From NCBI RefSeq assembly GCF_016584055.1, contig NZ_NRSH01000007.1, forward strand, positions 1 to 35,885: a stretch of DNA of 35,885 bases, written 5' to 3'. The translations under genes were made by a program, and so were the position numbers. Below the pieces are notes generated by a model. It did not search any database, had not been told where the DNA came from, and was given only the letters and a program-made list of their open reading frames with translations. Source of the stretch: Halorhodospira neutriphila. Lineage in GTDB: Bacteria; Pseudomonadota; Gammaproteobacteria; Nitrococcales; Halorhodospiraceae. Each line of letters opens with the position of its first letter. Within the stretch, counting starts at the first letter, position 1. Positions 22,317 through 34,356 of the stretch are shown piece by piece.

Positions 22317-22504
22317 TGCTGAGCACGTCGACGCTCTCGAGCATGATCCAGTCCGAGCTGGAGGCCCAGGGGTTCAACCTCTCGAAAGGGGAGGCTGACC
22401 GCCTAGCGGACGCCGTGGCGAAGGCGGTCGTGGAGCACATCCAGTCGTCCGCGGAAGTGCCGGTCACGAGCGGCTCCTCGGCCGGGACTTACTCGGTGCA
22501 GTAA
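22316..22504 (+). CDS. Small conserved baseplate-operon protein
   Basis: This is a 62-residue protein between V and W. It begins MLSTSTLSSMIQSELEAQGF, has a central Ala/Val helix and ends in TSGSSAGTYSVQ. The start overlaps the V stop (GTGATG) and its stop abuts the W start (TAATGG). Small proteins of this kind occur between V and W in several P2-like Pseudomonas and Halomonas prophages. I know of no assigned role. Confidence 0.7.
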   Translation: MLSTSTLSSMIQSELEAQGFNLSKGEADRLADAVAKAVVEHIQSSAEVPVTSGSSAGTYSVQ

Positions 22505-22851
22505 TGGGGATGGATCGCTACACCGGGCGCTCGGTCTCGGGGGTCGAGCAGGTCCGCCAGCGGGTCGAGGACGTCGTGCTTACCCCCGTAGGCACCCGCG
22601 TCGAGCGCCGCGACTACGGCTCCCGCGTGCCTGACCTCATCGACGAGCCGGGCGATGCGGCGACGGCCCTGCGCGTGTCATCGGCGGTCACCGATGCTGT
22701 CATGCGCCACGTCCCTGAGCTGATCCTGTCCCGCGTGCGCCTGATCCCTGATGACGCCGTGCAGGGTCGGTGGCAGCTGCGGATTGAGGGTCGGCTGCGA
22801 GGCGAGGGCGTAGAGCTGGCGGTGCCGATGGTGGGAGCTCCGGCATCATGA
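22504..22851 (+). CDS. W: Baseplate assembly protein W (P2 gpW, gp25-like)
   Basis: This 115-residue member of the T4 gp25/P2 W family joins the sheath to the baseplate. Recognisable features are the EDVVLTPVGTRVERRDYGSR motif and the DLIDEP segment. The start overlaps the stop of the small gene (TAATG) and the end overlaps J by 4 bases. Confidence 0.96.
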   Translation: MGMDRYTGRSVSGVEQVRQRVEDVVLTPVGTRVERRDYGSRVPDLIDEPGDAATALRVSSAVTDAVMRHVPELILSRVRLIPDDAVQGRWQLRIEGRLRGEGVELAVPMVGAPAS

Positions 22852-23756
22852 GCGCGATCGACCTATCCAGCCTACCAGCTCCTGATGTAGTCGAGCCCCT
22901 GGACTACGAAGGGATCCTGGAAGAGCGAAAAGCCGCGTTCCTGGACCTGGTCAGCGAGGACGACCGGGAGGAGTGGCGAAAGGTCATAGACCGCGACTCC
23001 GAGCCAGTGGCCAAGCTCCTCCAGGAAAACGCCTACCGCGAGCTGGTCTGGCGCCAACGCGTCAACGATGCCGCCCGGGCGCGGATGCTCGCCTACGCTA
23101 CGGGCTCCGATCTAGATCAGATCGCGGCCAACTACAACGTCGAGCGGAAGACCATCGAAGAGGGGGACGAAGATGCCGTCCCCCCCATCCCGCCGACGTA
23201 TGAGTCGGACCGTGACCTCCGCCTGCGCGCCCAGCAGGCCTGGGAGGGGCTGAGCGTCGCCGGGCCCCGTCAGGCGTACGAATACCACGCTCGCTCGGCG
23301 GATGGTCGCGTAGCTGACGTGTCGGCCACATCGCCGGCCGGCGCCGAGGTTGTGGTGACCGTCCTGTCCACCGAGGGCGATGGGTCTGCCTCCGACGACC
23401 TCCTTTCAGCTGTCGAGGAAGCGCTGTCGCCAGAAGATATCCGGCCTCTGGGGGATCTACTCACGGTCCAGTCGGCGACGATCATCGACTACGTCGTGGA
23501 CGCGACCCTCTATGTCTACCCCGGACCCGAGCAGGACCCCGTTCTTGAAGCGGCGAAGGAGTCGCTGCAGGCGTACGTCACCAAGCAGAAGCGCCTCGGC
23601 CGCGACATCCGGATCTCTGCTCTGCATGCTGCGCTACACGTCGAGGGCGTACAGCGCGTGGAGCTGGCTAGCCCTGTCGAGGACGTGGTCGTCGACGTCA
23701 CGGAGGCCGCGTACTGCACGGAGTCCACGGTAGAGATCGGCGGCAGCGATGAGTAG
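22848..23756 (+). CDS. J: Baseplate assembly protein J (P2 gpJ family)
   Basis: This 302-residue baseplate wedge protein has P2 J length. Key segments are LSSLPAPDVVEPLDYEGIL near the start, ATGSDLDQIAANYNVER, SVAGPRQAYEYHARSADG and the C-terminal GVQRVELASPVEDV. It is acidic. Its end overlaps I by 8 bases. It belongs to the V-W-J-I cassette. Confidence 0.96.
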   Translation: MSAIDLSSLPAPDVVEPLDYEGILEERKAAFLDLVSEDDREEWRKVIDRDSEPVAKLLQENAYRELVWRQRVNDAARARMLAYATGSDLDQIAANYNVERKTIEEGDEDAVPPIPPTYESDRDLRLRAQQAWEGLSVAGPRQAYEYHARSADGRVADVSATSPAGAEVVVTVLSTEGDGSASDDLLSAVEEALSPEDIRPLGDLLTVQSATIIDYVVDATLYVYPGPEQDPVLEAAKESLQAYVTKQKRLGRDIRISALHAALHVEGVQRVELASPVEDVVVDVTEAAYCTESTVEIGGSDE

Positions 23757-24378
23757 CGATGACCGCACTCCGGTCCTGCCCGGCAACGCGACGCCTCTCG
23801 AGCGTGCAGCGGCCGAGGCACTGGCGGAGATTCAGCGCGTCCCCATCCCTCTGCGCGAGCTATCCACGCCGTCCGATTGCCCCGAGAATCTCCTTCCGTA
23901 CCTCGCCTGGGCCGTCAGCGTCGACAGGTGGGACCCCAGGTGGAGCGCCGAGGAAAAGCGGCAGGTGGTCCAGGCGAGCTGGGACGTACATCGTCATAAG
24001 GGGACGATCTCCGCCCTGCGCCGCGTCATCGAGCCCCTTGGCTACCTGCTGGAGGTCATCGAGTGGTGGGAGACTGAGCCGCCCGGCGAGCGCGGTACGG
24101 CCGCACTCAAGATCGGCGTGCGGGACCGAGGCATAACCTCGGAGATGTACGACGAGCTCGAGCGCCTCATCGACGACGCCCGCCCGGTCAGCCGCCACAT
24201 CACCGGCCTGGATCTCGCTGGCGAGACTCGCGGAACCCACTACCACGCCGCGGCCGTCTACGACGGCGACGTGACCGCCGTCCTGCCGTACCAGCCCCAG
24301 ACCGTGGCCGTGAGCGGCGCCCACTACTACGGCGCGGCCCTGGACAGCGTCGACGCCACGACCGTCTACCCCGAATAG
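23749..24378 (+). CDS. I: Tail protein I (P2 gpI family)
   Basis: This 209-residue baseplate protein is at the base of the tail fibres. It has LPGNATPLERAAAEALA at the start, then CPENLLPYLAWAVSVDRWDP and RRVIEPLGYLLEVIEWW, the standard gpI sequence. It is the last shared gene before the fibre region, 9 bases ahead of the fibre-anchor gene. Confidence 0.96.
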   Translation: MSSDDRTPVLPGNATPLERAAAEALAEIQRVPIPLRELSTPSDCPENLLPYLAWAVSVDRWDPRWSAEEKRQVVQASWDVHRHKGTISALRRVIEPLGYLLEVIEWWETEPPGERGTAALKIGVRDRGITSEMYDELERLIDDARPVSRHITGLDLAGETRGTHYHAAAVYDGDVTAVLPYQPQTVAVSGAHYYGAALDSVDATTVYPE

Positions 24379-24387
24379 GAGCCGACC

Positions 24388-25422
24388 ATGTCGACCTTCT
24401 ACACCGTCCTGACCGACATCGGGCAGAACAAGATCGCTAACGCCGTCGCTGTCGGCGATACCATCGAGATCACGGATCTGGCCGTGGGTGACGGAGGCGG
24501 ATCTCTGCCGACCCCGGATTCTAGCTACGAGGCCTTGATCCATGAGGTCCGCCGAGCCGCGATCAACTCCAGCCAGACCGACCCGGACAATCCTAGCTGG
24601 ATCGTCGTCGAGCAGGTGCTGCCGCCGGATGTAGGCGGATGGACCATCCGGGAGGTGGGCATCTTCGATGCCGATGGCGATATGATCGCCTACGGCAACT
24701 ACCCCGAGACCTACAAGCCTGTCCTCGACGAAGGAAGCAGCCGCACCCAGACCGTCAGGTTCATCACCGAGGTGTCGGACACCGACGCCGTCACCCTCAA
24801 GGTCGATGCGTCGGTAGTCCTGGCTACCCGCGAGCTCGTTCAGCGCGAAGCCCGGGCCGACTACATCACCGGCGCCAAGCTCGCCTCCGATGTCAGCACC
24901 GGAGACGCCGTATACTGGGATCACGCCGCCGGCGAGCACAAGCTCGCCATCGCCGACGGCACTGCCGCTTCCCGGCCTGTAGGGCTGGCCGACGCAGTGA
25001 ACGGCCGCGTCTACTCCGGCGGATTGGTTGAGGGGGTGCTGACCGGCCTCACTGCCGGCGCCACCTACTATCTCAGCGCGGATACCGCCGGCGCCCTGAC
25101 TACCACCCGGCCGGCTTACCCGGTTGAGGTGGGCGTGGCCCATGGCGATGAAGCTCTGCTGCTGGGGATCCGCGCTGACACACAGCGCCGCGAGAGCGAT
25201 GGCGACCCCAACGGCACCCTGGCCGCCGAGCGCCTATACGAGGTCGCCTGGGATACGTCCGGCGCGACGCCGGTGCTTTATGTGGCCACCGCGGCCGATG
25301 GCACCGTCGACGGAACCACTTGGACCCCGGACGGCGATGTCACTCCCTACAAGGATCGTGAGACCGGGGAGCGATATCGGATCGCCATCGTCGATGGAGT
25401 CATGATGCTGGAGGAGGTCTAG
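24388..25422 (+). CDS. H: Tail fibre anchor protein (phage_tail_N / gpH N-terminal type)
   Basis: This 344-residue protein has an N-terminus, with FYTVLTDIGQNKIANA, TDLAVGDGGG and GGWTIREVGIFD, that is the tail-fibre N-terminal domain that docks P2-type fibres to the baseplate (about 1-160). The rest is beta-rich, with Gly/Thr repeats, a Lys/Asp-rich turn region and a carbohydrate-binding-like C-terminal strand module. It lacks the long collagen or collar domains of P2 H and is shorter (P2 H is about 669). Together with the two following genes it forms the fibre module that includes the DGR target. Confidence 0.88.
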   Translation: MSTFYTVLTDIGQNKIANAVAVGDTIEITDLAVGDGGGSLPTPDSSYEALIHEVRRAAINSSQTDPDNPSWIVVEQVLPPDVGGWTIREVGIFDADGDMIAYGNYPETYKPVLDEGSSRTQTVRFITEVSDTDAVTLKVDASVVLATRELVQREARADYITGAKLASDVSTGDAVYWDHAAGEHKLAIADGTAASRPVGLADAVNGRVYSGGLVEGVLTGLTAGATYYLSADTAGALTTTRPAYPVEVGVAHGDEALLLGIRADTQRRESDGDPNGTLAAERLYEVAWDTSGATPVLYVATAADGTVDGTTWTPDGDVTPYKDRETGERYRIAIVDGVMMLEEV

Positions 25423-25779
25423 ATGCGAGGGGTTCCCGCAGACCTGAACACCCGCGCCGACTACGAGCGCTGCCAGGAGCTGGCCCGCAACGGCGAGCTG
25501 CGCCACCGGGATATGCAGCGGCTGCGCGAGCACTGGGCTGGGATGCTTGAGGGGCGGCACTACTACGCCCCGGACCGGGTGCTGGATGACGGCGAGGACC
25601 CGGACGGCAGCGAGCCCGAGTACCTGGTCCGCGAGGTCGAGGACGAGGAGACCGGGGACGTACGACGACAGCAGTTCGTGCGTACCGAGCGCGACCCGAG
25701 TGCGCTGACCCGGACCGGCTTCACGGTCCAGGAAGTGGAGGACGCGATTTCCGAGCTGGAGGGCATGATCAATGGGTAA
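25423..25779 (+). CDS. Hypothetical fibre-module protein (118 aa)
   Basis: This is an acidic 118-residue protein between the fibre anchor and the DGR target. The ends are helical (DYERCQELARNGELRHRDMQ and the C-terminal VQEVEDAISELEGM), with a Tyr/Asp/Glu-rich middle. The start abuts the fibre stop (TAGATG), and the end overlaps the DGR target by 8 bases, so the three are translated together. It could be a connector or a fibre chaperone; nothing in the sequence decides. Confidence 0.7.
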   Translation: MRGVPADLNTRADYERCQELARNGELRHRDMQRLREHWAGMLEGRHYYAPDRVLDDGEDPDGSEPEYLVREVEDEETGDVRRQQFVRTERDPSALTRTGFTVQEVEDAISELEGMING

Positions 25780-26827
25780 GCTGATTGCTGCCGCAGCGGC
25801 TTCGCCGAGCCACTTCGAGATCGAGGGCCGGGTGGAGCCCGGCACCGGCGACCATGCGGTCGACCTCCCCGCGATGGCGGTGAATATCGGCGGCATCGGC
25901 CAGGGATACTTCCTGCGCGAGCGCATCGATTGGGACCCCACGGCCGCCGACAACCACGACGGGACCCTCGCCGGCGGGCTCTCTATCGGCGATGACGTGA
26001 CCATCTTCGCGGTGCCGCATGACTCGGGCTTCGCCTCCCTGGTAGCCAGCCTCAACACCACCGCCCCCGATGGCTACTCGACCACGGAATCCCGGCGCAT
26101 CGCCGGTTTCCACTATGGCCGCGTGCGCCCCCTCGACAAGAAGTACGACACGTCCTACGTCCCGGCTATCAAGCTGGTCCCCAACAGCGTCTGGGACCAT
26201 GATCACCGGCCCATCGCTTCGCCCTACGGCATGGCGGAGCTGCCGTCCGGCATCTGGATCAGCATCTACCAGCTTTCCCCCGGCAGCGGCACGGGCCTGG
26301 ACATGGTGCCGGTGAGCAAGTACGGCGTGCAGCCGATCAAGGACGATACCTACTCCCGGGACGACCTCCCCGAGCTGCTGGATAATGCCGGCATGTGGTC
26401 CCCCACCGCCAAGCTGTTCCGCAAGTACGCCCGGGGCGCGCCCCAGGGGAACGATGGGGACAACGACCTCGCGTGGAGCTCCACCAGCAACGGCGGCCCC
26501 ACCGAGACCGGCACCGTGGAGAAGGCGGTCTCCGTCTACAACATCTGCGATGCGGTGGGGAACCTGTGGGACTGGCTGAATGACGAGTTCGATACGAGCA
26601 CTTCGAACGGCTGGGACTCCTCGGTCGTCGACGGAGTGGGCGAAGAAGGAAGCTACGACCGGGGCGAGGTCAATCACGGCGCTTGGCGCGGCGCGCACGG
26701 CGGCGGCCGCTTCGACGACGGCGTGCGCTGCGGCGCGCGCACTGTCTACTGGGGCGCCCGTCCGTGGCTCTCGTACGGCCTCACGGCCGCGCGCGGCGCC
26801 AGTGACCCCCTGAAGCGCGGTGCCTGA
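25772..26827 (+). CDS. DGR variable protein: C-type-lectin/FGE-like tail-tip receptor binder
   Basis: This 351-residue protein ends in the variable repeat. The central and C-terminal part has features of the formylglycine-generating-enzyme/C-type-lectin fold: PDGYSTTESRRIAGFHYGR (about 100-118), SIYNICDA-like and the characteristic GNLWDW motif (compare GNVWEW), then WRGA. In the last 47 residues the variable positions are H309, R313, D316, Y326, G328, R330, L333, Y335 and L337; each is Asn in the template. The scaffold residues between them (FDD, GVRCGART, W, PW, TAARGASD) are constant. By analogy with Bordetella phage Mtd it should sit at the tail tip and bind the host receptor. Confidence 0.93.
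   Translation: MGKLIAAAAASPSHFEIEGRVEPGTGDHAVDLPAMAVNIGGIGQGYFLRERIDWDPTAADNHDGTLAGGLSIGDDVTIFAVPHDSGFASLVASLNTTAPDGYSTTESRRIAGFHYGRVRPLDKKYDTSYVPAIKLVPNSVWDHDHRPIASPYGMAELPSGIWISIYQLSPGSGTGLDMVPVSKYGVQPIKDDTYSRDDLPELLDNAGMWSPTAKLFRKYARGAPQGNDGDNDLAWSSTSNGGPTETGTVEKAVSVYNICDAVGNLWDWLNDEFDTSTSNGWDSSVVDGVGEEGSYDRGEVNHGAWRGAHGGGRFDDGVRCGARTVYWGARPWLSYGLTAARGASDPLKRGA
26685..26807 (+). repeat. DGR variable repeat (VR)
   Basis: This is 123 bp at the 3' end of the target gene, 546 bp upstream of and collinear with TR (27231-27353). There are 14 mismatches, every one at a TR adenine (14 of 23 adenines changed, 0 of 100 other bases). The repeat may extend to 26683-26811, with three further adenine-only differences. 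The 3' end (GGCCGCGCGCGGCGCC and AGTGACC) is G/C-rich and identical in both, as expected for the initiation-of-homing region. Confidence 0.97.
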
Positions 26828-27221
26828 TCCGGCCACCCGGCAGGGTGGCCGGGGCCTGAAGCTCCAGCAGAAGGCGGAGGAGCTGTACCTGGAGCTGGCC
26901 GGGCCCATCCAGCGGATCCCCAGGAGCCACCGCTACCGGGCGGCGGCCGACCTGGAGGCGCAACTGCGGGAGCTTATCGACCGCATCATCGAAGCCGCCA
27001 GCTCCGGCCAGCCCTCGAAGGTCTACCGGCTCTACGAGCAGGTGCGCAAGGTGGAGTGGCGGTTGGCCATGCTGGCCCGGCAGGGACTGATCCGGCCGCA
27101 GGTGGCGGGCCGGCTCTCCCGGCCGCCGGCCGAGGACGACGACCGCGACCGCGGCGGCACCTTCTACGAGCTGAAAGCCATGGTCGGCGCCTGGCGGGAG
27201 CGGGTGAAGCAAAGGGGCTGA
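26820..27221 (+). CDS. avd: Accessory variability determinant Avd
   Basis: This 133-residue helical, basic protein fits the Avd family: a four-helix-bundle protein that forms a pentamer, binds the DGR RNA and reverse transcriptase and is required for adenine mutagenesis. Four helices can be outlined (KLQQKAEELYLELAGPI; HRYRAAADLEAQLRELIDRI; PSKVYRLYEQVRKVEWRLAM; FYELKAMVGAWRERV). The start GTG 26820 overlaps the target stop by 8 bases; no ATG is available, and the ribosome site is weak, so coupling is likely. The stop lies about 9 bases before TR. Confidence 0.88.
   Translation: MPDPATRQGGRGLKLQQKAEELYLELAGPIQRIPRSHRYRAAADLEAQLRELIDRIIEAASSGQPSKVYRLYEQVRKVEWRLAMLARQGLIRPQVAGRLSRPPAEDDDRDRGGTFYELKAMVGAWRERVKQRG
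26829..26852. promoter_or_regulatory. DGR hairpin/cruciform downstream of VR
   Basis: CCGGCCACCC and GGGTGGCCGG form a perfect 10-bp stem with loop GGCA, 21 bases after the end of the VR core and just past the target stop codon. Hairpins with 4-base GRNA loops at this place promote target recognition in characterised phage DGRs; GGCA fits GRNA. Confidence 0.85.
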
Positions 27222-27230
27222 GGAGGTTTA

Positions 27231-27353
27231 GGCGCGGCGCGAACGGCGGCGGCAACTTCGACAACGGCGTGCGCTGCGGCGCGCGCACTGTCAACTGGAA
27301 CGCCAATCCGTGGAACTCGAACGGCAACACGGCCGCGCGCGGCGCCAGTGACC
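27231..27353 (+). repeat. DGR template repeat (TR)
   Basis: This invariant copy begins 9 bases after avd. In the frame matching the target gene it would encode Asn (AAC or AAT) at all nine variable positions. AAY codons can become 15 amino acids by changes at the two adenines but can never become a stop. The A content is concentrated at those codons in an otherwise G/C-rich sequence. Confidence 0.97.
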
Positions 27354-27453
27354 ACCATAGCGAGAGGGCGTCGAAGGCTCGGCGCCACCTAGCACCCCCA
27401 GGGGGTCAGCTCCTCAGTCCCGGTGCCCCGCGCGGGTGCCAAACCGTGAGCGG
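27354..27453 (+). ncRNA. DGR RNA spacer region downstream of TR
   Basis: This non-coding stretch between TR and the terminator, plus the terminator stem, amounts to about 143 bases up to the T-run. In the BPP-1 element a similar length downstream of TR is required for cDNA priming by the RT-Avd complex. Local pairings such as CCCGCGCGGG (near 27427-27436) suggest a structured RNA. The exact ends are unknown. Confidence 0.6.
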
Positions 27454-27500
27454 ACGGCCCGGCGCGAGTAGGGAGACCGAAAGCCCCGGGCCGTTTTTTT
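27454..27500 (+). terminator. Intrinsic terminator between TR and the reverse transcriptase
   Basis: ACGGCCCGG (27454-27462) pairs perfectly with CCGGGCCGT (27486-27494), followed by seven T residues. It should give the TR transcript a defined 3' end just ahead of the RT ribosome site at 27505. The loop is a 23-base purine-rich sequence. Confidence 0.85.
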
Positions 27501-27513
27501 GCCTGGAGGAGAC

Positions 27514-28539
27514 GTGAGCGCGAAGGCCAAGCACCTCATCGAGGACATCGCCGACTGGAACAACCTCATGGCCGCCCACCGCCTGTGCAAGCGCGGCAAG
27601 GGGCGCAACCAGGAGGTGGCGCAGTTCGACGCCGACCTGTGGACCCACCTCGGCGCCATCCAGAACGAGCTGCTGTGGGGTATGTACCAGGTAGGCGACT
27701 ACCGCCACTTCCGGGTCTTCGACCCCAAGCGCCGAGAAATCGCGGCCGCACCTTATCGGGACCGCGTTGTGATGCAGGCCGTCTGCCGAGTGTGCGAGCC
27801 GCTGTGGGTGCGGGCCATGATCGACGACACCTACGCCTGCGTGCGCGGGCGCGGCCCCTACGAGGCCGTAGGCCGCCTCCAGCAGTGGCTGCGCTACTAC
27901 CGGCGCCGGGGCGAGACCGCCTACGCCCTCCACGTCGACGTGGCTAGCTTCTTCCAGACCATCCCGCACGACGTGGCCAAGCGCGTCATCCGCAAGCGCA
28001 TCGCCTGCGGCCGCACCCTGAAGGTCCTCGACGCCATCATCGACAGCATGGAGCCCGGCGGCGACGAGACCGGCGTGGCAACCGGCAACCTGCCCAGCCA
28101 GTGGATCGGGAACCTGGTCCTCAACGAGGTGGACCAGGCCGCAAAGCGCCGCCTGGGCATCCGCCACTACATGCGCTACATGGACGACATCCTGATCCTC
28201 GGCACTGACCGCGCCCAGCTCAAGGATTGGCAGCGCGAGCTCGAGCGAGAGCTGGCAGCGCTTGGCCTGCGCGCCGGCAAGGTCAACATCCAGCGCGCCG
28301 AGGGCGTGACCTACGTAGGCTATCGGGTGTGGGCCCGGTCTATGAAGGTCAAGGGGCAGACCCTACGCCGTATCCGCCGCCGTATGCGCGGCCTACAGAA
28401 GAGCGTCCAGAAAGGCCAGATTAGCCCAGGCCGGGCCCGGGACACGCTTCAGTCCTGGCGCGCTCACCTGATTCAAGGGCATGCCCGTGGTTTTTGGCGG
28501 AGGCGAGTGTTGGAGTGGCAAAACAGGGCTAGGGAGTAG
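27514..28539 (+). CDS. DGR reverse transcriptase
   Basis: This 341-residue reverse transcriptase copies TR RNA into mutagenised cDNA. Motifs are F-D-P-K-R-R-E with PYRDRVVMQAV (about 69-90), the palm catalytic Asp in LHVDVASFF (D142), the DGR-type GNLPSQ (191-196, where ordinary retroviral RTs have LPQG) and the active-site box YMDD (222-225). The C-terminal thumb region is basic. The start GTG 27514 has GGAGGA four bases upstream; the TTG at 27499 lies in the terminator and is rejected. It lacks the maturase and endonuclease domains of group II introns and lies beside TR and avd, so it is not a retron or intron RT. Confidence 0.96.
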   Translation: MSAKAKHLIEDIADWNNLMAAHRLCKRGKGRNQEVAQFDADLWTHLGAIQNELLWGMYQVGDYRHFRVFDPKRREIAAAPYRDRVVMQAVCRVCEPLWVRAMIDDTYACVRGRGPYEAVGRLQQWLRYYRRRGETAYALHVDVASFFQTIPHDVAKRVIRKRIACGRTLKVLDAIIDSMEPGGDETGVATGNLPSQWIGNLVLNEVDQAAKRRLGIRHYMRYMDDILILGTDRAQLKDWQRELERELAALGLRAGKVNIQRAEGVTYVGYRVWARSMKVKGQTLRRIRRRMRGLQKSVQKGQISPGRARDTLQSWRAHLIQGHARGFWRRRVLEWQNRARE

Positions 28540-28626: not shown

Positions 28627-29799
28627 ATGGCTACCGAGTACCATCACGGCGTCAAGGTCATCACCTCGACCGACGGCGTCCGGCCGATCCGCACCGTATC
28701 GACAGCCATAGTCGGCGTCGTGGGGACCGCGCCGGACGCCGACTCAGACGTCTTCCCGATGGACACGCCGGTTCTCGTTGCCTCGCGCGAAAAGGCCGCG
28801 AAGCTCGACACCGCTGATAGCGGTTCCGGCACCCTCCCGAGAGCGCTGCAAGGCATATATGACCAGGCTCTCTGCTCGGTCGTCGTCGTGCGGGTATCTG
28901 AAGGCACTTCCGAGTCGGAGACGACCACCAACATCATCGGCGAGGTCGACTCCACGACCGGGAAGCACAAAGGCCTAGAAGCACTGCGCGTCGCCGAATC
29001 TCAGCTCGGCGTCAAGCCGCGCATCCTGGGGACGCCGGGGCACGCCTCCCAAGAGGTCACGTCGGCGTTGACCCCCATCGCGGCCGACCTGCGCGCGTTC
29101 GCTTACGCCGGCGCTGTAGGCGCTACCGAGAGCGAGGTCATCACCTATCGCGAGAACTTCGGCGACCGCCGCTTGATGCTCATCTGGCCCGACTTCATGG
29201 GGTGGGATTCTGCCACTGACAGCACGTCCGAGCTCTCGGCTGTGGCCCGGGCGCTGGGGACGCGGGCGCGCATCGACCAAGAGACCGGGTGGCACAAGAC
29301 GATCTCGAACGTCGCCGTGGAGGGCGTTACCGGCATCAGTGCCGACGTCTCCTTCGATCTCCAGAACCCGAACACCGTGGCCAACCGCCTCAACGACGAG
29401 GACATCACCACCCTCGTCCGCCGCAACGGCTTCCGATTCTGGGGGTCTCGCACCTGCGCCGACGACCCGCTCTACGCTTTCGAGAGCGCCGTGCGCACCG
29501 ACGACATCCTCGCCGACACGATCGCCGAGGCGCACGCCTGGGCCATAGACCTGCCCATGAGCAAGCAGCTCATCCGCGACATCGTCGAGGGCACCAACGC
29601 CAAGTTCCGGCAGCTTGCCCTGCGCGGCTACATCGTGGACGCCCAGGCCTGGGTGGACCCCGAGAAGAACACCGAGAGCGAGCTCTCCGCCGGCAAGCTC
29701 GCCATCGACTACGACTTCACGCCGGTGCCGCCGCTGGAGCAGCTGGGCTTCTACCAGACCATCACCAGCCGCTACCTGAGCCAGCTGGTGCCGGCGTAA
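28627..29799 (+). CDS. FI: Contractile tail sheath protein (P2 gpFI family)
   Basis: This 390-residue sheath subunit contracts around the tube during injection. The start (YHHGVKVITSTDGVRPIRTV) and end segments (NVAVEGVTGISADVSFDLQ, RNGFRFWGSRTC, YDFTPVPPLEQLGF) match P2 FI at full length (about 396). GTGGAG precedes ATG 28627. It is first gene of the FI-FII-E-T-U-D tail operon. Confidence 0.97.
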   Translation: MATEYHHGVKVITSTDGVRPIRTVSTAIVGVVGTAPDADSDVFPMDTPVLVASREKAAKLDTADSGSGTLPRALQGIYDQALCSVVVVRVSEGTSESETTTNIIGEVDSTTGKHKGLEALRVAESQLGVKPRILGTPGHASQEVTSALTPIAADLRAFAYAGAVGATESEVITYRENFGDRRLMLIWPDFMGWDSATDSTSELSAVARALGTRARIDQETGWHKTISNVAVEGVTGISADVSFDLQNPNTVANRLNDEDITTLVRRNGFRFWGSRTCADDPLYAFESAVRTDDILADTIAEAHAWAIDLPMSKQLIRDIVEGTNAKFRQLALRGYIVDAQAWVDPEKNTESELSAGKLAIDYDFTPVPPLEQLGFYQTITSRYLSQLVPA

Positions 29800-29811
29800 G
29801 GAGGATAGGGC

Positions 29812-30324
29812 ATGGCGCTCCCCCGCAAGCTGAAGGACTTCAACCTCTTCATCGAGGGCGAGGGCTACATCGGCCGGGCCGAGGAAGTCAGACTGCCGAC
29901 GCTCACGCGGCAGACCGAGGACTACCGCGGCGCCGGCATGACCGGCCCGGCCCGCATCGACCACGGCCACGAAGCGCTCGAGGCGGAGATCACCCTCGGC
30001 GAGCACGCTGCGGCCGTGCTCAAGACTTGGGGCACCCAGGACGCCAGTGGCGTGCAGATGCGCTTCCTCGGCTCGGCCGAGTCCGACGACCCCGAGGCCG
30101 AGCACGTCACCATCGAGGTCGTGATGCGTGGGCGCTTTACGGAGATCGACCCGGGCACCGCCAACACCGGCAACGACAACCAGATGAGCCTCACCGCTTC
30201 GCTGACCTACTACCGCTACGTCCAGAACGGCGAGGACCTCATCGAGATCGACGTCGTCGGCGGCAAGGAGGTCGTCGACGGAGAGGACCGCATGGCCAAG
30301 CGCCGCGACGCACTGGGGATCTAG
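29812..30324 (+). CDS. FII: Tail tube protein (P2 gpFII family)
   Basis: This 170-residue tube subunit begins with ALPRKLKDFNLFIEGEGYIG and contains GMTGPARIDHG; the pattern and length match P2 FII (172). AGGAGGATAGGGC precedes ATG 29812. It sits directly after the sheath gene. Confidence 0.97.
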   Translation: MALPRKLKDFNLFIEGEGYIGRAEEVRLPTLTRQTEDYRGAGMTGPARIDHGHEALEAEITLGEHAAAVLKTWGTQDASGVQMRFLGSAESDDPEAEHVTIEVVMRGRFTEIDPGTANTGNDNQMSLTASLTYYRYVQNGEDLIEIDVVGGKEVVDGEDRMAKRRDALGI

Positions 30325-30327
30325 ACC

Positions 30328-30615
30328 ATGAGCAAGACCGCAGCCGCTACCGTCACCCTCGGCACCCCGATCCAGCGCGGCGATCAGGAGATCGACACCG
30401 TCCAGCTCCGCCAGCCCACCGCCGGCGAGCTCCGAGGTCTCAACCTCGTCGACGTTGTCCAGCTCGAGGCCGGCGCGCTCATCACGCTCCTGCCGCGGAT
30501 CACCGACCCCGGCCTCACCGATGCCGAGGTGGCCGGCCTGGGCGTCACGGACTTCATGGCGCTGGCACAAGAGACGGTGGGTTTTTTGCTGCCGAGCGAC
30601 TCCCGTCCCGCATAG
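30328..30615 (+). CDS. E: Tail assembly chaperone E (P2 gpE family)
   Basis: This 95-residue chaperone for the tape measure has TVQLRQPTAGELRGLNLVDV, typical of gpE. Near its end the frame crosses T TTT TTG (30582-30588), a -1 slippery heptamer, which leads to the longer E-E' product. It lies 3 bases after FII. Confidence 0.94.
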   Translation: MSKTAAATVTLGTPIQRGDQEIDTVQLRQPTAGELRGLNLVDVVQLEAGALITLLPRITDPGLTDAEVAGLGVTDFMALAQETVGFLLPSDSRPA

Positions 30616-30746
30616 AGGACGCCATCGCTGACGTGGCCACGATATTCCACTGGCCACTCTCCGAGATGACCCCGATGACCGTGGGCGAGCTCATGGACTG
30701 GCGTGAGCGCGCCCGCGTGCGCTCCGGCGACAGGGGCGAGGAATGA
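30328..30746 (+). CDS. E': E-E' tail assembly chaperone made by programmed -1 frameshift
   Basis: Slipping back one base at TTTTTTG (30582-30588) joins codons 30328-30588 to 30588-30746 and gives a 139-residue fusion. The extension contains IFHWPLSEMTPMTVGELMDW-RERAR, the conserved gpE' ending. P2 uses the same heptamer in the same gene pair. The overlapping frame has no ribosome site or start of its own. Its stop overlaps the tape-measure start (ATGA). Confidence 0.9.
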
Positions 30747-32722
30747 GCCGCAACCTCGACTTCCGAATGGTGGCGCGGCTGGCCGACAAGGTCTCCGCGC
30801 CCGCCCGCCGCATCCGCGAGGCCTCCGGCGGGATGGCCGGCTCGCTGCAGCGCACTCGGGACGAGCTCCGGCGCGTCCAGGCTCAGCAGCGCAAGACCGG
30901 CCAGCTCCAGAGCTACAACCAGCGCATCCGCGACCATGCCGAGCAGCTCGACCAGGCCAACGAGCGCCTCGCGCAGCTCAAGCGCCAGTACCGCGACACC
31001 GAGCGGCCCACCAAGACCCTGCAGAAGCAGATGGCGGCCGCCGGGAAGCGGGTCTCCAAGCTCAGTAGCCGGCACACCGAGCTGCGCAAAGAGGCCCATC
31101 AGGTGCGCAAGGCCCTCCAGGACGAGGGCGTCGACACGGCCAAGCTCGGCGACGAGCAAACCCGCCTCAACCGGCGCGCCCAGGACCTCACCCAGAGCCT
31201 CGAGCGCCAGCGCCGCGTCGCTGGCCGGCTCAGCAGCCTCAAGAGCGCACTCGGATCCGGGTGGGAGCGGATCAGCGGCCGGATCGGCCGCCTCGCCCGC
31301 TTCGGGGCGTGGGGCGGCGGCGCCGCCGCGGCCGGCACCAGCGCCCTGGGATACCAGGCCATGCAGGCCGCCGGGGGGCGCGAGGACTTCATCACCACGT
31401 TGCGGACCATCGAAGGCAGCGCCGAGGCGGCCCGCAAAGCCTCCGAGTGGGTCGACGAGTTCGCCACCAAGACGCCGTACCAGCTAGCCGAGGTCCGGGA
31501 GGCCTACACAAAGCTGCGCGCCTACGGCATGGATCCGACGAACGGCCTCCTGCGCACCCTGGGCGACACCAGCGCCGCCATGGGCAAGCGGATCATCGAC
31601 TCCGTCGAGGCGATCGCCGACGCCGTTAACGGCGAGAACGAGCGCCTCAAAGAGTTCGGGATCAAGGCCTCCACGTCCGGCGATCTCATCACCTACCGCT
31701 ACACCGACGCCCAGGGCCGCCAGCAGATGGCCCAGGTCCTCAAGGACGACCGGGACATGATCCGGCAGACGCTGACGCGGATCTGGCGCGAGCGCTTCGG
31801 CGGCGCCATGGAAGCGAGGAGCCGGACCTGGAACGGCATGATCTCCAACCTCCGGGACCAGTGGACTCGATTCCTCAACGAGGTCGCGGCGTCGGGGCCG
31901 ATGGAGGAGCTCAAGGGCAACCTGCGCTCCCTGCTCCGCATGCTCAACCGCGCCTCCGAGGACGGCCGGCTCGACCGCTGGGCGGAGCAGGCCGGCGAGC
32001 ACATCGTCGACGCGATCCAGACCACCAAGGAGCTGAGCCGCTGGCTCATCAAGACCAGCGGACAGCTCCAGGATACCGCCTATCAGCTCAAGGAGTGGGC
32101 AGGGTCATGGCAGACCCTCGGGATCGCCGCCGCCGTAGCGTACCTGGTTGGCCCCGGGGGGCTCGTCGCCGGGCTCCGGCAGACGTCAGGCCTGCTCGCT
32201 GGTCTCGCCCGGCTGGCCACGGCACACCCGCTGGCCGCCCTGGTGATCGGCATCGCCGGCGCCGCCGCCACAGTCATTACCCAGTGGGACCACGTCCGCA
32301 GCTGGTTCAGCGACTTCTTCGACTGGCTCGAGCGGCGGTTCGGCCGGCTCGGCGAGATCGCCGGCCGACTCGAGGGGCCGGGCAAGATGCTCGTCTCGCC
32401 GATCATGACCTGGCTGGACGAAGCGAAAGCATTTGGCAGCCGGCTCTCTGAGGTGTCTTGGACGCCCGGATCCCCCTCTGCGGGAGACGCTCCAGTGCAG
32501 CCAGGAGTGCCCGGAGCGCCCCCCATCGGTCAGCCACTAACGGCAGGGCCGGGAGCTATCGCTCCTCTATCGCCGCAGGTCAACGTCCACGTCCAGGCGC
32601 CGCCAGGATCTGATGAGTATCGAGTGGGCCAGATAGCCGGCGAGGCGGCGCGGAAAGAAGTGGAGCGCCTGATGCGCCAGCAGGAGTCCCGGCGCCGCGG
32701 CCGACTCATCGACCCTGAATAG
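30743..32722 (+). CDS. T: Tail tape measure protein (P2 gpT family)
   Basis: This 659-residue protein sets tail length and helps the DNA cross the membrane. The N-terminal third is a Gln/Arg-rich coiled coil (about 30-160). The central region contains YQAMQAAGGREDFITTLRTI and TYRYTDAQGRQQMAQ. There are two hydrophobic stretches (about 455-490 and 500-515) and a Pro/Gly-rich C-terminal part. It is shorter than P2 T (815), implying a somewhat shorter tail if length scales in the usual way. Confidence 0.95.
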   Translation: MSRNLDFRMVARLADKVSAPARRIREASGGMAGSLQRTRDELRRVQAQQRKTGQLQSYNQRIRDHAEQLDQANERLAQLKRQYRDTERPTKTLQKQMAAAGKRVSKLSSRHTELRKEAHQVRKALQDEGVDTAKLGDEQTRLNRRAQDLTQSLERQRRVAGRLSSLKSALGSGWERISGRIGRLARFGAWGGGAAAAGTSALGYQAMQAAGGREDFITTLRTIEGSAEAARKASEWVDEFATKTPYQLAEVREAYTKLRAYGMDPTNGLLRTLGDTSAAMGKRIIDSVEAIADAVNGENERLKEFGIKASTSGDLITYRYTDAQGRQQMAQVLKDDRDMIRQTLTRIWRERFGGAMEARSRTWNGMISNLRDQWTRFLNEVAASGPMEELKGNLRSLLRMLNRASEDGRLDRWAEQAGEHIVDAIQTTKELSRWLIKTSGQLQDTAYQLKEWAGSWQTLGIAAAVAYLVGPGGLVAGLRQTSGLLAGLARLATAHPLAALVIGIAGAAATVITQWDHVRSWFSDFFDWLERRFGRLGEIAGRLEGPGKMLVSPIMTWLDEAKAFGSRLSEVSWTPGSPSAGDAPVQPGVPGAPPIGQPLTAGPGAIAPLSPQVNVHVQAPPGSDEYRVGQIAGEAARKEVERLMRQQESRRRGRLIDPE

Positions 32723-32733
32723 GAGGAGCGCTG

Positions 32734-33162
32734 ATGCTCGCTGTCCTCGGGCTATTCGTCTTCCAGCTCAACACCGCGCCGTATCAGCAGTTCCAGCGCA
32801 CCACCCACCAGAGCTGGCCCGGGGCCGAGCGGGTGGGCCGCCGGGCTAGCTACCAGTACACCGGCGCCGGCGACGACAAGGTCACCCTGTCGGGCAGCCT
32901 AGCGCCGGAGATCACCGGCGGCCGGATCAACATCGACGCCCTCCACATCATGGCCGACCTCGGCCTCAGCTACCCCCTGCTCGACGGCGAGGGGACGCTC
33001 TACGGCCTGTACGCCATCGAGCGCGTCGACGAAACCCGGACGGAACTCTACGGCAACGGCGCGCCGCGCAAGATCGAGTTCACCCTTTCGCTCAAGCGCA
33101 CCGATGACAGCCCCGTAGACGCCATCGGCTCACTGATGCGCCTAGGGGTCGGGGCGCTATGA
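32734..33162 (+). CDS. U: Tail protein U (P2 gpU family)
   Basis: This 142-residue tail terminator-like protein begins MLAVLGLFVFQLNTAPYQQFQRTT and contains GPEITGGRINID-like and LYAIERVDE segments, the standard gpU pattern. AGGAGGAGC precedes ATG 32734. It overlaps D by 4 bases. Confidence 0.95.
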   Translation: MLAVLGLFVFQLNTAPYQQFQRTTHQSWPGAERVGRRASYQYTGAGDDKVTLSGSLAPEITGGRINIDALHIMADLGLSYPLLDGEGTLYGLYAIERVDETRTELYGNGAPRKIEFTLSLKRTDDSPVDAIGSLMRLGVGAL

Positions 33163-34181
33163 GGCGGCCGTCTTGGTCCATCACCGTCGAAGGCATCCCG
33201 GTGCCAGCCGTCGACAAGCGGCTTTCCAGCCTCAGCGTCACCCAGCAGAGCGGATTCAGCGCCGACGAGCTCGAGCTGGAGATCGACGCCGGAGACGTCA
33301 TCATCCCGCCTGCGGGCGCCGAGATCGCCGTCGCCGTAGGCATGGAGGACGCCAGCCTCGGCGTCGGTACCTTCATCGGCGCCGTGTCGCCGTCGGCGCC
33401 GCGGGACCTGGGGACCTACACCGTCACCGAGATCGAGCACAGCGGGCCGCCGAACACGCTGCGCATCCGCGGCCGCAGCGCCGACGTCGCCGGCTCGCTC
33501 ATGGCCCAGCGCACGCAGAGCTACGACCACATTCTCCTCGACGCCCTGGTGACGACCATCGCCGGCCGGCACGGCCTACAGCCTGTCATCGGCCTGGGGC
33601 TCAGCGGCACCCTGCTCGAGCACATCGATCAGACCGAAGAGAGCGATGCCCATCTGCTCACCCGCCTGGCCGAGGACCACGACGCCATCGCCACGGTGAA
33701 GAACGGTCGCTTGCTATTCGTCCGCCGCGGTCGCGGCGTCAGCGCTTCCGGCCTGCCGATGCCGCCGGCGGCGCTGCGCCGCGATGAGTGCGGGCCGCAC
33801 CGCTACCAGCGCGTCGAGAACCCGACGTCGTACACCGGCGTCCGCGCCCGCTGGTACGACCGCGAGGAGGCCCGCGCGCACCATGTGCTCGCAGGAGAAT
33901 CCGGCAACCTGCGCGTCCTCAAGGACATCTACCCCAACGAGCGCAGCGCGTACTCGGCCGCCGAGGCCGAGTGGCGCCGCCTGCAGCGCGGCGGCGTCTC
34001 GCTCAGCGTCCAGGCAGCGATCGGCCGTCCCGAGATCGGCGCCGAGACCCCCGTGACGCTGCTGGGCGAATGGCCGGCTGAGGTCGTCGCCCAGAGCTGG
34101 ATAGTCGCCAGCTCCACCCATCGTCTCGACCGGGGCAGCGGCCTGACCACGGCGCTCGAGCTGTACCCCTACACCCCCTGA
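33159..34181 (+). CDS. D: Tail protein D / late control protein (P2 gpD family)
   Basis: This 340-residue tail-hub protein is of the gp27/VgrG-like fold. Characteristic parts are ITVEGIPVPAVDKRL near the start, ADELELEIDAGD, RAHHVLAGESGNLRVLKDIYPN and the ending VASSTHRLDRGSGLTTALEL. It is the last structural gene; its stop lies 4 bases before the right-end TGTCCAAAA site. Confidence 0.95.
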   Translation: MRRPSWSITVEGIPVPAVDKRLSSLSVTQQSGFSADELELEIDAGDVIIPPAGAEIAVAVGMEDASLGVGTFIGAVSPSAPRDLGTYTVTEIEHSGPPNTLRIRGRSADVAGSLMAQRTQSYDHILLDALVTTIAGRHGLQPVIGLGLSGTLLEHIDQTEESDAHLLTRLAEDHDAIATVKNGRLLFVRRGRGVSASGLPMPPAALRRDECGPHRYQRVENPTSYTGVRARWYDREEARAHHVLAGESGNLRVLKDIYPNERSAYSAAEAEWRRLQRGGVSLSVQAAIGRPEIGAETPVTLLGEWPAEVVAQSWIVASSTHRLDRGSGLTTALELYPYTP

Positions 34182-34308: not shown

Positions 34309-34356
34309 GGATTGTGGCTCCGGAGGTCGTGGGTTCGAGTCCCGCCGCTCACCCCA
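34309..34356. repeat. attR core (48 bp)
   Basis: This is an exact copy of 2921-2968. It is the displaced original 3' part of the host tRNA-His gene, without the 5' half, so it is not a functional tRNA. Confidence 0.95.

Follow-up and report, generated by a model that had tools for sequence, protein, structure and literature searches.

In Bordetella phage BPP-1, a podophage, the diversity-generating retroelement (DGR) is laid out as mtd-avd-TR-brt, with a variable repeat (VR) at the 3′ end of the target gene, and the spacer RNA behind its template repeat (TR) recruits the reverse transcriptase (RT) together with Avd and primes cDNA synthesis (summarised in PMC12875486). The hairpins of phage DGRs have GC-rich stems of 7–10 bp and 4-nt GRNA loops, at distances of 4–34 bp (PMC3240598). 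The presence of a DGR in a contractile-tailed or P2-like phage is not new, as the Vibrio phages VHML and VP58.5 and the Pseudoalteromonas phages ACA1 and ACA2 are precedents. VR differs between ACA1 and ACA2, and their authors, writing in 2023, were unaware of any further DGR in a P2-like phage (PMC10612066).

Here we analysed a stretch of 35,885 nucleotides from Halorhodospira neutriphila (the window), which, with a probability of about 95%, holds a complete DGR among the tail genes of a P2-like prophage that itself appears complete. That it is a complete P2-prophage DGR aimed at one Mtd-like tail protein is supported by the repeats, the protein profiles, the covariation of the spacer, the anatomy of the prophage and the variation among its relatives. 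The locus resembles BPP-1 in the order of its parts, in the Mtd-like target, Avd, the RT and a 3′-terminal VR in the target, and also in its hairpin with a GRNA loop and its folded TR spacer. The original prediction had already given the BPP-1 order of target with VR, hairpin, avd, TR and RT, and this order is confirmed. In contrast to BPP-1, however, the phage is not a podophage, its target shares only about 28% identity with Mtd, and its avd overlaps the target stop codon and contains the hairpin.

The prophage spans 31.4 kb (2921–34356) between two exact copies of a 48-bp direct repeat, both on the forward strand: attL (2921–2968), which forms the 3′ end of a tRNA-His gene (2893–2968), and attR (34309–34356). 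Its minus strand encodes an integrase (phrog_1), a replication protein, the portal and the terminase, followed by scaffold, capsid, connector and tail completion genes ahead of W, J, I and H; the P2 structural genes run in order as Q and P (minus strand) followed by O N M L X R S W J I H FI FII E T U D. Upstream of the cassette lie the baseplate genes W, J and I in P2 order (22504–24378, forward; phrog_43, phrog_6/4226 and phrog_48), and downstream, again in P2 order, sheath FI, tube FII, E, the tape measure, U and D (28627–34181, forward; assigned by PHROGs). The prophage is apparently complete and of Peduoviridae type, and the predicted location in a P2-like late operon is borne out by both the gene order and the att repeats. 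The cassette itself, a 118-aa open-reading frame (ORF) and the target-DGR, is found between gpH and FI, in place of distal H, G and the Z/fun region, where foreign genes are often carried in P2-like phages (PMC3091744). The element had been assigned to the slot of tail-fibre genes H and G, which is right for G and for the distal part of H, both replaced, whereas the N-terminal tail-collar fibre domain of H is kept in a gpH-like protein (24388–25422, forward), which matches Pfam Phage_tail_fib over residues 1–148 (E = 3.6e-58) and phrog_327 over residues 2–156.

The two repeats, VR (26683–26811, forward) at the 3′ end of the Mtd-like gene and TR (27229–27357, forward) downstream of avd, are each 129 bp in length and align without gaps over these 129 bp, in register at an offset of 546. 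They differ at 17 positions, every one of them at a TR adenine, with 26 adenines among the 129 TR bases (hypergeometric p = 4.4e-15). Read in the target frame, all 26 TR adenines fall at codon positions 1 or 2 and none at position 3, and the changed adenines are divided into ten at position 1 and seven at position 2. Translated in the same frame, TR reads RRGANGGGNFDNGVRCGARTVNWNANPWNSNGNTAARGASDH; nine of its codons are Asn codons (AAC/AAT type), and these are unable to mutate to stops. No second pair of the VR/TR type was found in the whole 35.9 kb window, nor was any further repeat copy of comparable similarity found on a search of the genome (the assembly is 95% complete). The DGR therefore has one target in the assembly, in agreement with the single locus originally proposed. 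An exact-pattern scan of IMG/VR with the TR/VR core of the window gave no match, hence no population variants of the prophage's own phage were found there.

The target gene (25772–26827, forward) encodes a protein of 351 aa, predicted to be an Mtd-like receptor-binding tail protein, with matches to phrog_11262 and to Pfam mtd_2nd (E = 1.5e-16). A 15-sequence profile of the target matched six solved Mtd sequences (1yu0–1yu4) over positions 60–346, with E-values of about 1e-24 to 1e-26, about 6e-26 among them. This alignment extends across the Mtd lectin domain, and the AlphaFold model of the target is of low confidence over the C-terminal domain (mean pLDDT of 49 in the variable domain); the C-type lectin fold of the variable domain is thus predicted from homology to Mtd only, and the binding role of the protein is likewise a presumed one. 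The span first given for the element, 26685–28539, runs from VR to the RT stop codon, but the target gene already starts at 25772. The accessory variability determinant gene avd (26820–27221, forward; NF033474, phrog_3206) begins with a GTG that overlaps the target stop. Its product was detected by the NCBIfam Avd model with an E-value of 1.4e-10 at 41 bits, short of the curated cut-off of 80, and its profile matched the solved BPP-1 Avd (4dwl, E = 1.4e-14) and also the Avd of 8ub7. Inside the first codons of avd, 17 bp after VR, sits a DNA hairpin/cruciform (26829–26852, forward) with a 10-bp stem and the loop GGCA, which fits the GRNA consensus, and the codons at the loop read RQ in many relatives. 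The RT gene (27514–28539, forward; phrog_1423, E = 2.3e-102) has an open frame from TTG 27499, the more likely start being GTG 27514, which has the ribosome-binding site GGAGGAG. Both motifs of the intact RT that had been reported, GNLPSQ and YMDD, are present, the former being of the GxxxSQ kind typical of DGRs.

Between TR and the RT gene lies the TR spacer RNA (27358–27500, forward), for which an alignment of the TR 3′ end and spacer of 16 sequences gave a consensus fold with 39 pairs, 17 of them changed on both sides, and with 96.6% of cells able to pair. The covariation score of this fold was 0.376, compared to a mean of 0.175 in shuffled alignments (reached in none of 500 shuffles) and at most 0.097 when slid, the slide control being somewhat favourable as the alignment was built without structure and the structure was derived from the alignment. 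Within the consensus fold, at 27342–27410, the TR 3′ end (GTGACC) is predicted to pair with a conserved downstream GGGGTCAGC element, and this pairing may perhaps position the start of cDNA synthesis. The last long helix (27452–27496), with a run of seven T at 27494–27500, had been called a terminator. As a true intrinsic terminator it would separate the TR-RNA transcript from transcription of the RT and tail genes, a reading favoured by the GC-rich stem and the seven T of the window and by T-rich sequence behind the stem in the relative L117. However, the stem is conserved and covaries across the 16 relatives, with double changes in five of its nine pairs, and these include the closest relatives L109 and L110, which keep the stem and lack the T-run; nor was it listed by the consensus scan, which was limited to loops of 3–8 bases. 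The helix most plausibly belongs to the spacer RNA as its conserved 3′ stem; a terminator is not supported as a conserved feature, and such a role in this one phage is rather unlikely.

Relatives of the element also inform on whether it works. Zero relatives were returned by a scan of IMG/VR with the single RT sequence, and an alignment query recovered them. The closest, L108–L110 and L208, have RTs 72–76% identical to that of the window and occupy the same P2 slot; their targets (51–58%) and 118-aa ORFs (35–41%) are much less similar than the RT. L109 and L110 are ~85% identical overall, yet 20 of 127 VR sites are different between them, every one a TR adenine, against one of 127 in TR. Similarly, 14 of 14 VR differences between L118 and L119 and 13 of 13 between L159 and L162 are at TR adenines, with identical TRs within each pair. 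Three near-copy pairs exhibited zero VR differences, and some pairs within the groups L161/L168/L171, L165/L174 and L024/L130 had one to three VR differences away from TR adenines. This pattern is the mark left by mutagenic homing in this family, and is not proof for this lysogen. A DGR recently inactivated in a decaying prophage, with its parts intact by sequence, the phage non-inducing and VR frozen, would fit the single prophage copy that is available, from an assembly of 287 contigs, and a genome without direct signs of activity. We nevertheless consider this unlikely, as all DGR genes and all detected P2 structural genes are open, the att sites are still exact copies, and in the relatives VR diverges at adenines only around a near-constant TR. 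Far more improbable again, to the point of being negligible, is that the enzyme is the RT of a group II intron, a retron or a defence system and that the repeats are an unrelated duplication. NCBIfam and PADLOC do list group II and defence RT models for it, but the NCBIfam scores are far below the curated cut-offs, and in the comparison with DGR RTs that the original prediction had proposed as a check, the best solved match of the RT profile was the BPP-1 DGR complex 8ub7 (E = 1e-89), ahead of the best group II RT (E = 4e-32) by more than 50 orders of magnitude and also far above the retron enzymes. A simple duplication leaves the adenine-only mismatches unexplained, and these identities were rejected because both the profile comparison and the mismatch pattern contradict them. 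The element is, in sum, the complete DGR that had been predicted, with adenine-only mismatches, Avd, a GRNA hairpin, a covarying spacer RNA and a DGR-type RT. It is most likely active or recently active, and activity may be ongoing in this lysogen.

On the model of BPP-1, an RNA spanning the 3′ part of avd, TR and the spacer would be bound by Avd and the RT via the folded spacer, and the RT would copy TR into cDNA with misincorporation opposite adenines. This cDNA would then be substituted for VR in the 3′-terminal part of the Mtd-like gene, with the GC-rich 3′ end of VR and the hairpin that follows it as guides. Codons bearing adenines alone would change, so that the variable face of the receptor-binding protein would be resampled whilst TR stays fixed, presumably to the benefit of the phage.

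Directly upstream of the target is the uncharacterised ORF of 118 aa (25423–25779, forward), which matched no family in Pfam or PHROGs, and which in the annotated phage collection occurred only in the Mu-like Chromohalobacter phage YPCBV-1 (50% identity). It was present in 30 of the fetched DGR loci, just upstream of an Mtd-like target wherever the position was readable. Those 30 loci had been fetched by RT, the ORF family was therefore run as an independent query of IMG/VR, and in 12 of 12 loci an Mtd-like target directly followed the ORF and an RT match was found. Loci with the ORF belong to both P2-like and Mu-like phages. Across 19 loci, the pairwise identity of the ORF correlated with that of the target when the RT was held constant (partial r = 0.60; reached in 0 of 2000 permutations), but not with that of the RT when the target was held constant (partial r = −0.04), whilst avd identity followed the RT (0.83), values to be taken as a guide since locus pairs are not independent data points. 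The simplest reading of these identities is that the ORF and target would form one unit and avd and the RT another. The 118-aa protein is a candidate adaptor or assembly partner of the target. Tentatively, and at somewhat less than even odds, Mtd-type targets and a dedicated adaptor or assembly partner of this kind may form a portable pair, which travels between P2-like and Mu-like phages with contractile tails, in part separately from avd-RT. The ORF that accompanies the target is a new lead, and the two pairings suggest a cassette of two exchangeable halves (ORF-target and avd-RT), which could account for how DGR targets dock on different tails. Two other genomes of the same genus, L028 (G006:C8) and L027 (G004:C5), carry different DGRs with RTs about 32–33% identical to that of the window; the G006 target is 45% identical to the window's target, a sign of recombination between target and RT.

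In an RT tree of 106 rows, the window grouped with L109 and L110 (100/100), in a clade composed mostly of DGRs of Mu-like phages such as YPCBV-1 and apart from VP58.5 and ACA1. DGRs in the P2 slot fell into about six separate groups, as judged by eye with one label corrected by hand. The tree gave eight changes for the P2-slot label, a slight overcount, L110 having been mislabelled ‘tail end’: its contig stops inside the RT, and the overlapping L108 (100% identity over 1483 bp) runs on into FI. This scatter over several separate groups implies that the cassette has moved repeatedly between phage backbones. Elsewhere among the loci, an unusual DGR layout was seen in L057 (7574–7828) and L112 (9574–9828), where VR-like and TR-like repeats are only 155 bp apart and avd was not detected. 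In L024 (5749–7026) and L004 (9746–11011), TR is located inside the RT open-reading frame, and the RT would thereby have a translated TR extension; a TR inside the RT frame was noted for ACA1 (PMC10612066).

Among the described systems, VHML and VP58.5 are contractile-tailed phages with P2-like tail genes in the order V-W-J-I-H-target-avd-TR-RT-FI-FII and a DGR in the same place. Their RTs, however, belong to a different clade (about 34–36% identity), and the RT open frame of VP58.5 takes in TR. ACA1 and ACA2 are P2-like too, with antireceptor, avd, TR and RT after the N-terminal domain of H, but their tail genes follow the HP1-type order with FI far upstream and the RT is about 32% identical. 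YPCBV-1, in turn, shares the whole cassette, the 118-aa ORF, the target (48%), avd and the RT (44%), yet there it closes the structural operon, behind tail genes of Mu type. Among the loci analysed here, DGRs on P2 tails recur at several separate places in the RT tree, beyond ACA1 and ACA2, and this locus adds to them a well-preserved DGR in a P2-like prophage.
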